From: an uncultured Anaerolineae bacterium
Lineage (GTDB): Bacteria; Chloroflexota; Anaerolineae; JACIWP01
Length of the DNA stretch: 32,078 nucleotides
Direction: 5' to 3'
Assembly (NCBI GenBank): GCA_938049385.1
Contig: CALIBQ010000049.1
Span: 1-32,078 of the forward strand
In this document: positions 158 through 1,676 of the stretch, in pieces
Layout: every line of letters starts with the position of its first letter
Numbering within the stretch: position 1 is the stretch's first letter
Program-made: the position numbers and the translations under genes
The notes under the pieces: generated by a model
Told to the model about the DNA's origin: nothing
The model's input: only the letters and a program-made list of their open reading frames with translations
The model's database searches: none

Positions 158-664
158 TCATCGGGCGCAAATATCGGCGTAGCCGCAGTGCGCACAGCGC
201 GTGGTGGATAAGGACGGGGGCGGGGGCTCGCCGGCCAGCAAATGCCGGCGCATGGTCTCCAGCGCCTCCAGCAGTTCACGCCGCAGTGCATCATCATACG
301 GCACCCGGATAGGGCGATCGTCATAACGGATAATGCCGTACGGCGGCGCCTGGCCGGCAGTTTCTTCGATGAGCAGACAATAGGCCGCCAACTGCAGGCG
401 ATGGGAATCGTAGGGGACCGCCGGCGCATTGCCTGACTTCACTTCCACCGGGATGTGGTGCCGGCCTTCCTGCACCACATAGTCCGGCCGGCCTTGCAGA
501 GCGTAACGCCCGGAGCGCAGGAGAGGAGACCTGCCATCCCCCGCGTCAGCATAGCGGATGCCGCCGGCCGGCAGGCCGGCCCTCTGTCGAAGCCGGCGCG
601 CCCACAGCCACAGCACGGTGCCGGCAAGGGCGGAGAACAGCATCAGCGCAAGAAGGAACAGCAA
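158..664 (-). CDS. Cas4-like PD-(D/E)XK nuclease, catalytic C-terminal half, membrane-anchored
   Basis: With a TTG start at 664 the protein has 168 residues. An N-terminal membrane segment (about 2-21) is followed by basic ARRLRQR, which suggests a cytoplasmic C-terminus. The nuclease core then shows GRPD (Asp61), VEVKSG (Glu74, Lys76) and QLAAY (Gln91), the standard D...ExK...QxxxY pattern of the Cas4/RecB exonuclease family. The end carries Cys157, Cys160 and Cys166 (CAHCGYADIC), the last three ligands of a Cas4-type Fe-S cluster. The first cysteine ligand and the N-terminal His motif are missing here and lie in the preceding ORF. TTG was chosen because AGGAG (677-673) stands 8 nt upstream of it and overlaps the stop of that ORF; GTG at 682 is an alternative without a good ribosome binding site. 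The gene may be the second half of a split protein, or the downstream part of a frameshifted single gene. The nuclease assignment is strong; the substrate is unknown. Confidence 0.8.
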   Translation of the reverse strand: MLFLLALMLFSALAGTVLWLWARRLRQRAGLPAGGIRYADAGDGRSPLLRSGRYALQGRPDYVVQEGRHHIPVEVKSGNAPAVPYDSHRLQLAAYCLLIEETAGQAPPYGIIRYDDRPIRVPYDDALRRELLEALETMRRHLLAGEPPPPSLSTTRCAHCGYADICAR

Positions 665-675
665 CTCCCCATCTC

Positions 676-933
676 CTACCACAACCAGGAAAGGAGCAGT
701 ATCAGCCCTGCTAGACCAGCCGCTCCCCACAGCAGGAAAGCCAGCGTCCGCAGGAGTGACATGCGGCGCACACCCTGAAAGTGCCGGCGGTGAAGGGCCT
801 GCCCGCGGCGCAGGGCTTCGGTATCCTGCGGCTCCAGGCCTTCCACATGCCTCAGCCACCAGGCGCGCGGACAGTACGCGAAACTGCCTACCTCACTGGC
901 GTTAATGATGGGCATCTGCCGGCTCATACTCAC
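676..933 (-). CDS. Cas4-like nuclease, N-terminal half with C-terminal membrane anchor
   Basis: This 85-residue ORF starts with GTG at 933, overlapping the translin stop (GTGA); ATG at 927 is a second possible start. It contains INASEVGSFAYCPRAWWL (Cys21), the typical start of Cas4-like nucleases with the first Fe-S cysteine. It also has GQALHRRH (His48, His51), matching the RecB-family GxxxH motif. Residues 59-85 form one hydrophobic helix after a basic VRR, so the N-terminus is predicted to be cytoplasmic and the protein tail-anchored. The TAG stop sits inside the ribosome binding site of the following catalytic half. Neither half carries the full set of active-site and cluster residues, so a working nuclease would need both. 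The alternative is one gene broken by a -1 frameshift or a sequencing error, in which case the two helices would form a hairpin. I see no classic slippery heptamer in the overlap. Confidence 0.7.
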   Translation of the reverse strand: MSMSRQMPIINASEVGSFAYCPRAWWLRHVEGLEPQDTEALRRGQALHRRHFQGVRRMSLLRTLAFLLWGAAGLAGLILLLSWLW

Positions 934-1601
934 TGGGCCGCGTCCTTCCCCGTTTGATTCATCCCATGAAGATGGCCCTCGAAGGCGGCCAGCGCAGACT
1001 CCAGTTTCTCTTGGCGGGCGGCGATCATGAGGTCGCCGCGCGTGCGCTCGATGATGCCGCGGGCCACATCAGTGAGCCGGCGCAGGCCGGCGGTAATTGC
1101 GTCGGGATAATCCATGGTGACCAACACGTCGTAGATGTCATCCATCATTTCCATCAGGCGATCGCCGCGGGATAATTCGCCGGCGCGGATGCGGTCCACC
1201 ACATGCCGGCGCAGTTCACCGACGGCCTCGGCCAGGCCGGCCAGGTAGGTGTTGTACTCGATCCCCATAGCCTCGGGTTCAGGCAGAGGCCGGTCCTGGA
1301 CAAGGGCGAAGGTGGCGCTGGCCTCGACGAATTCCTTGAGGGCATCCTGGGTGTAGCCGGCGAAATACAGGTCAGGATGTCCCGCCAGGTCGGCCCGCAT
1401 GGCATCGGCCACTTGGCGCGCCTGCTCCAGCAGTTGCTGGGCCAGGTCAAACTCCTGGCGGTGGACGGCGCGGATGGACATGGCGCAGTAGCGGATGAGT
1501 TCCCGCGAGCGGGACAGCGCCTGGTCCCGGGCGGCGTTCTTGACCTCGAAGGCAGCGCGGATGCGCTCGCTGATGGCCTCCAGATTGGGAATCCCGGTCA
1601 T
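930..1601 (-). CDS. Translin/TRAX-family protein (putative metal-dependent RNase)
   Basis: The 223-residue, largely helical protein begins at ATG 1601, preceded by GAGGTG. Earlier in-frame codons are not conserved-looking and lie across the promoter. It carries the family pattern: RSRELIRYCAMSIRAVHRQEF near residues 31-51, HPDLYFAGYTQDALKEFVEA near 75-94, and LTDVARGIIERTRGDL in the C-terminal third. In TRAX, the catalytic partner of translin, two Glu spaced by two residues and a later Asp hold Mg2+. Here Glu90 and Glu93 fit the first pair and the Asp of LTDVARG fits the third, so RNase activity is a reasonable inference. Some database entries call such bacterial proteins haloacid dehalogenase, but I see no HAD motif. 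It is the first gene of the operon and its stop overlaps the start of the Cas4-like ORF by four bases. Confidence 0.85.
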   Translation of the reverse strand: MTGIPNLEAISERIRAAFEVKNAARDQALSRSRELIRYCAMSIRAVHRQEFDLAQQLLEQARQVADAMRADLAGHPDLYFAGYTQDALKEFVEASATFALVQDRPLPEPEAMGIEYNTYLAGLAEAVGELRRHVVDRIRAGELSRGDRLMEMMDDIYDVLVTMDYPDAITAGLRRLTDVARGIIERTRGDLMIAARQEKLESALAAFEGHLHGMNQTGKDAAQ

Positions 1602-1647: not shown

Positions 1648-1676
1648 AGTCTAGCGCGAAAGACGAGCGGTGTCAA
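1648..1676 (-). promoter_or_regulatory. Promoter of the translin/Cas4-like operon
   Basis: On the minus strand TTGACA (1676-1671) is followed after 17 nt by TAGACT (1653-1648). The -35 box is perfect and the -10 box matches 4 of 6. The expected start point leaves a leader of about 40 nt before the ATG at 1601. Confidence 0.75.

Follow-up and report, generated by a model that had tools for sequence, protein, structure and literature searches.

Can a single Cas4-type nuclease be encoded by two short, membrane-anchored half-genes, and does the translin-like gene beside them belong to the same machinery? The question is raised by the window (the whole stretch of 32,078 nucleotides that was analysed), which comes from contig C49 of a 3.37 Mb genome (98% complete) of an uncultured Anaerolineae bacterium and begins at a contig end. 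The window contains three closely packed minus-strand genes in the order T-N-C, where T encodes a TRAX/translin-like protein, and N and C encode two parts of a Cas4-like domain (the N-half and the C-half). The features of the locus are as follows, all on the minus strand.

930..1601, minus: T, TRAX/translin-like protein of 223 aa, from ATG 1601 to TGA 932-930
1334-1332, 1325-1323, 1229-1227 and 1217-1215, minus: codons of the T acidic residues E90, E93, E125 and E129
676..933, minus: N-half, 83-85 aa, first part of the Cas4 domain and one C-terminal transmembrane (TM) helix, TAG stop at 678-676
873-871, 804-802 and 792-790, minus: N-half motif codons for Cys, Gly and His (alignment A1, 48 sequences)
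679..744, minus: predicted N-half TM helix, N-in, C-out (hydropathy and positive-inside count, 80 homologues)
673..677, minus: AGGAG ribosome-binding site of the C-half, overlapping the N-half TAG stop (from the sequence)
158..664, minus: C-half, one N-terminal TM helix, PD-(D/E)XK core and three Cys, TTG start at 664
484-482, 445-443, 439-437, 394-392 and 382-380, minus: C-half core codons for D, E, K, Q and Y (alignment A2, 61 sequences)
196-194, 187-185 and 169-167, minus: C-half Cys codons (alignment A2)
602..664, minus: predicted C-half TM helix, N-out, C-in (81 of 83 homologues with a TM helix, positive-inside 79:3)
1648..1676, minus: promoter-like site TTGACA-17-TAGACT upstream of T-N-C (consensus scan only, 10/12)

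Two candidate starts were considered for the N-half, GTG 933, which overlaps the T stop codon (GTGA), and ATG 927, which is likelier because the nearest relative starts there (MSRPLPLINASE). The AGGAG at 677-673 sits 8 nt ahead of TTG 664, which corresponds in the alignment to the C-half ATG in the closest relative. The N-half carries the Cys and the G-x3-H motif, while GxPD, ExK, Q and CxxCx5C are carried by the C-half. A split gene of this layout had been described in a first-pass annotation of the same DNA; all of its elements are present in the sequence, and the two half-genes are conserved across the phylum as separate ORFs.

The Two Halves Match Complementary Parts of Cas4

When compared with the Cas_Cas4 model, the N-half covered positions 3-44 and the C-half positions 53-159. 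Matches to TIGR00372 (cas4, NCBIfam, 180 positions) extended over 1-44 and 57-179, respectively, and those to PDDEXK_1 over 3-43 and 96-246. Since the two halves match complementary parts of the same models, the split is not due to chance. The C-half alone scores 86.8 on TIGR00372 (NCBI cut-off, 65), and the short N-half yields weak individual database scores. The C-half also matched the sequences of Cas4 structures 8d3l (102-201), 7mi4 (68-196), and 4r5q (119-214); the N-half profile reached 4r5q (59-109) and 8d3l (12-58) weakly, and these matches fall on the stretch that is absent from the C-half. The first Cys and the His-motif helix, which Cas4 enzymes carry, were not found in the C-half.

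Homologues were collected from a panel of 100 genomes of the class, taken as Anaerolineae. C, W, G, and H are invariant in the N-half (48 sequences, alignment A1), and GxPD, PxExK, Q, Y, and CxxCx5C are invariant in the C-half (61 class sequences, alignment A2). The four Cas4 cysteines, invariant in both class alignments, are divided one to the N-half and three to the C-half, and the Cas4 catalytic set is complete only in the pair, with G and H in the N-half and D, E, K, and Q in the C-half. A Cas4 is one polypeptide; here, N and C are separate in all loci examined, and neither chain alone can therefore be filed as a Cas4.

Predicted Membrane Topology and Joint Fold

A TM helix was predicted in 80 of 80 N-half and 81 of 83 C-half homologues, and positive-inside counts favoured a cytoplasmic location of the soluble part in both cases (77:0 for the N-half and 79:3 for the C-half). 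The arrangement suggested earlier, with one TM helix per half and both soluble parts predicted to be cytoplasmic, is thus conserved among homologues. With the N-half N-in/C-out and the C-half N-out/C-in, the gene would be split exactly at the outer turn of a two-helix hairpin.

For structure prediction with AF2, N and C of locus L033, which are in-frame, were joined by reading the single TAA as Ser, with no other alteration. The alignment comprised 120 rows, of which 7 were joined and the others N-only or C-only; trimmed single-half rows were used in folding alignments A5 and A7. The resulting model (pLDDT 94.2, pTM 0.89) was most similar, according to VIA-align, to the Cas4 domain in 7mi4, a Cas4/Cas1 fusion (Z 21.4; 181 residues superposed at 2.4 A; model range 2-256), followed by the I-C Cas4 8d3l (Z 19.9). 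Cas4 was again the best match (Z 15.1 over 159 residues) of the model of a distant independent pair, L133 (25 rows, pLDDT 85.2, pTM 0.68). Because the chains were joined covalently, with the stop read as Ser, and few rows were paired, these models speak for compatibility rather than binding. Modelled in this way, as a joined chain, the two halves are predicted to form one Cas4-type domain, as had been proposed, and are compatible with a single such domain that bears a two-helix membrane hairpin and whose gene is split at the outer turn.

We conclude that N and C are very probably the subunits, both obligate, of a single Cas4-superfamily Fe-S PD-(D/E)XK nuclease. In silico, there is good support for a nuclease assembled at the membrane, and its halves would associate physically, hold an Fe-S cluster, and have nuclease activity. 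Each half would be a single-pass inner-membrane protein, the N-half N-in/C-out and the C-half N-out/C-in, and pairing of the TM helices would bring the two together. Their cytoplasmic parts would then close into one Cas4 fold, where one Cys from the N-half and three from the C-half would bind one shared Fe-S cluster, and where the N-half helix with the His motif would complete the active site of the C-half D/ExK/Q core. The assembled enzyme would process DNA at the membrane.

The TRAX-Like Gene and Other Neighbours

T had been annotated at first as a translin gene, and its product as a C3PO-like RNase working together with the nuclease. The assignment to the translin superfamily stands, with a refinement: the closest solved structure is archaeal TRAX (AfTRAX 3zc1, E=1e-34, profile 10-202; NEQ131, E=4e-18), and the alignment is nearly end to end. 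Acidic residues E90, E93, E125, and E129 are invariant in T (35 sequences, alignment A3), and we take them to be the TRAX catalytic acidic positions. T resembles archaeal TRAX (AfTRAX 3zc0/3zc1; NEQ131) in conserving acidic residues and in being encoded by one translin-superfamily gene per genome. It differs from AfTRAX at E125, which is Asp in 3zc1 and Ala in 3zc0, and from archaeal TRAX generally in that it is often found beside a Cas4-type gene. C3PO, a hetero-oligomer of translin and TRAX, requires two paralogues, but nearly every genome contains a single translin-superfamily gene; a hetero-complex of this type is therefore unlikely. The NCBIfam PRK14562 models name the T family (window, 930-1601) "haloacid dehalogenase superfamily protein", which is apparently a misnomer.

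The partnership of T with the nuclease was supported only in part. T adjoins N (within 3 kb, same strand) in 50 of the 74 class genomes that have both genes, and does so even in some class genomes with C elsewhere. Outside the class, it was seen at one N-C locus (L129), most of the pairs examined there being without T nearby. T is also present in 18 of the 25 class genomes that lack N and in 220 of 400 genomes across the phylum, in many lineages, and is therefore not dedicated to N-C. We conclude that T, a frequent neighbour in the operon, has a role of its own and is not an essential partner.

The recurrent same-strand gene order is DUF3467-like - T - N - (L,D-transpeptidase) - C - (HisS) - NadK - (B-box-like) - RecN, where NadK and RecN are NCBIfam matches, and the names DUF3467, HisS, B-box, and L,D-transpeptidase are presumptive, being assigned by our own reading. 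A gene with L,D-transpeptidase-like sequence motifs and a Pro/Thr-rich linker lies precisely between N and C in ca. 15 loci, among them L041 (3602-4369), L050 (4676-5413), and L062 (1717-2451), and such a gene is found between N and C in another lineage as well (L129). In some other lineages, the gene before N encodes RseP protease or a protein with an HD domain. In several families, the C-half is followed by same-strand NadK and RecN genes (for example, L077, 4012-4917, and L040, 5862-7616), hinting at a DNA-repair neighbourhood. The recN link is one of gene neighbourhood only, seen in ca. 9 of about 45 families, and could be coincidental.

CRISPR, Mobile Elements and the Likely Role

No cas genes were found among the recurrent neighbours of the pair, and Cas1 was present in 40 of 76 genomes with the pair versus 11 of 24 without it (p=0.64). 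The location of the module outside any CRISPR locus was thereby borne out, and coupling to CRISPR was rejected. The pair was not found by tblastn against phages, a viral-contig scan revealed no copies of it, and matches on plasmids corresponded to ordinary Cas4-type genes only; a mobile or phage origin was rejected on these grounds. Among PADLOC models, only those for Cas4-type, Cas4-Cas1, and DruK PD-(D/E)XK proteins gave matches. ComEC is present in 92 of 100 genomes and, being near universal, is uninformative about a link to competence.

The presence of RecN, the lack of phage or viral copies, and the lack of a link to Cas1 weakly favour a housekeeping DNA role over defence. The conserved chromosomal neighbourhood, nadK-recN included, is consistent with housekeeping DNA processing, and we give a little under an even chance to the pair being a membrane-tethered nuclease that processes DNA ends or ssDNA. 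Alternatively, the pair could be a membrane sentinel against DNA that enters by transformation or from phages, gated by assembly of the halves and possibly forming a defence module together with the TRAX-like RNase. The predicted membrane position would suit such a sentinel, and a Cas4-like nuclease of a cyanobacterium is reported to lower plasmid transfer or maintenance (PMC10653904). Against it, the pair is chromosomal, occurs in most class members, forms one group in the tree, is absent from phage and viral collections, with plasmid matches that are ordinary Cas4-type genes, and is unrelated to Cas1. We therefore consider the sentinel unlikely, and the defence module of the first-pass annotation was not sustained.

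The Split Is Conserved and the Halves Are Inherited Together

Homologues of the C-half, aligned from within the TM region onward, were found in ca. 75 of the 100 class genomes, in some 45 families. At 48 of the 61 class C loci, N was present upstream, each time as a separate ORF. At strong scores, both halves were detected in 73 class genomes, C only in 1, N only in 2, and neither in 24 (n=100; Fisher p=1e-19 for co-occurrence). The genome with C and without N, G044, has a contamination estimate of 7%, and the two with N and without a full C, G045 and G099, have an incomplete assembly or a run of N. Families f15, f19, f37, f38, f39, and f42 contain both states, N and C changing together, though some of these absences may reflect incomplete genomes. 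In G079, which is 97% complete, C is absent, apparently lost jointly with N; a 22-codon N fossil follows T directly in this genome (L165, 3880-4400), and unrelated sequence comes after it.

N and C are non-adjacent in 17 of the 73 genomes: they are on different contigs in 15, are 5.5 kb apart in one, and are separated by 2.8 Mb in G012, a closed genome where C lies at 0.24 Mb, T at 2.37 Mb, and N at 3.05 Mb. Both halves recur in other Chloroflexota lineages, where examination of 20 loci revealed separate N and C ORFs in 19 of 19 genomes, with ca. 0.9 Mb between them in G371. A fused N-C ORF was found in none of the 61 class and 20 outside-class loci examined; an uninterrupted ORF in close relatives, which would have spoken against the split, was thus looked for without success. 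One candidate fusion, a long ORF of G412 (L163), was rejected, since it is an N-like start running on without the C part. At L136 (7488-8345), a second N-like match (25.7 bits) lies in a long ORF without a TM helix, ca. 4 kb from the N-C pair, and is possibly a decayed duplicate.

When 41 split C-halves were placed in a tree with 19 Cas4 proteins that Chloroflexota encode as single ORFs, many of the latter from the same genomes, the split forms made up one group (97/91), which was recovered in 96% of bootstrap trees. In most of the single-ORF proteins, N and C domains were both detected in one ORF, and several of these proteins are encoded beside cas1.

It could be argued that N and C are real genes that share no domain, N being a regulator or anchor acting elsewhere and C a nuclease that is self-sufficient or has a different partner. 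C alone does pass the NCBI Cas4 cut-off, and in gene order N is associated with the translin-like gene and C with nadK-recN, which holds even in some genomes that have the two halves apart. However, C is missing the first Cys and the His-motif helix, residues that are invariant in N, and co-occurrence is near perfect, the halves are apparently lost together, and a joint fold was predicted confidently; we regard separate functions as improbable. Similarly small is the probability that the halves, once assembled, act chiefly as a membrane sensor that binds Fe-S and DNA and not as a nuclease. In one lineage (L138, L169), the C-half lost GxPD and ExK and kept its TM helix, as a sensor would allow, but D, E, K, Q, and Y are invariant in 61 of 61 aligned class members. 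This loss indicates that catalysis is not needed everywhere, and a structural or DNA-binding function without cutting may persist in the lineage. The degenerate C-halves are at L138, 3352-3912, and L169, 2-517, and in L138 the partner N ORF persists, making a split pseudo-nuclease.

Synthesis of a full-length N-C protein by programmed frameshifting or stop readthrough is highly improbable: in six or more loci just one stop does separate N from an in-frame C, but the halves are found in every possible frame relation, TAA, TAG, and TGA are all used as stops, and this explanation was ruled out by pairs that are unlinked or interrupted by other genes. That a single Cas4-like gene was broken by a frameshift or sequencing error, leaving an artefact or a young pseudogene, can be dismissed almost entirely, since, although in the window the two halves, which are in different frames, overlap at a single junction, the same split is shared by ca. 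75 of the 100 genomes of the class and by other lineages, closed genomes included, in all frame combinations, the catalytic residues are invariant in the class alignments, and genes intervening between the halves or megabase separations rule out a frameshift or assembly error.

Relation to Known Nucleases and Significance

The obligate two-subunit nuclease proposed here shares with Cas4 (PF01930, TIGR00372, COG1468) the full PD-(D/E)XK core, G-x3-H, the four-Cys arrangement and, as predicted by AF2, the fold. It differs from Cas4 in consisting of two polypeptides with one TM helix each and in not being linked to CRISPR; ordinary Cas4 of the same genomes is one ORF, with N and C parts ca. 12 residues apart in the shorter forms. 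The Fe-S nuclease domains of AddB, AdnA, Dna2, and Exo5 also have the PD-(D/E)XK fold, with Cys on both sides of the nuclease core. Their structural similarity to the pair model is lower than that of Cas4, and, in contrast to the pair, their nuclease domain is in a single chain, often with a helicase.

Like the pair, solo-Cas4 genes are found outside CRISPR loci, and they were reported in "many Chloroflexi" (Hudaiberdiev et al. 2017, PMC5704561); these may include the C-half. Four cysteines were stated for all solo-Cas4 members in that work, short fragments were discarded, and the words "split" and "transmembrane" are absent from its main text. In the literature covered by our search, this was the single directly relevant paper, and neither a split or membrane-anchored Cas4 nor translin joined with Cas4 was described.

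Because the C-half alone is above the NCBI Cas4 threshold, surveys would count half an enzyme as a Cas4, whereas the N-half is too short and weak to be named; the present analysis corrects the annotation in this respect. The pair provides an example of a nuclease active site and a metal cluster that would be divided between chains. If true, an Fe-S nuclease that is well studied in its soluble form has a membrane-tethered version made of two chains, encoded by two genes found phylum-wide. We tentatively suggest that this Fe-S nuclease is naturally and permanently split, with an active site and a cluster that come into being only on contact of the two membrane proteins, and that its assembly, through TM pairing and the redox state of the shared cluster, could serve as an on/off gate at the inner membrane throughout the phylum.
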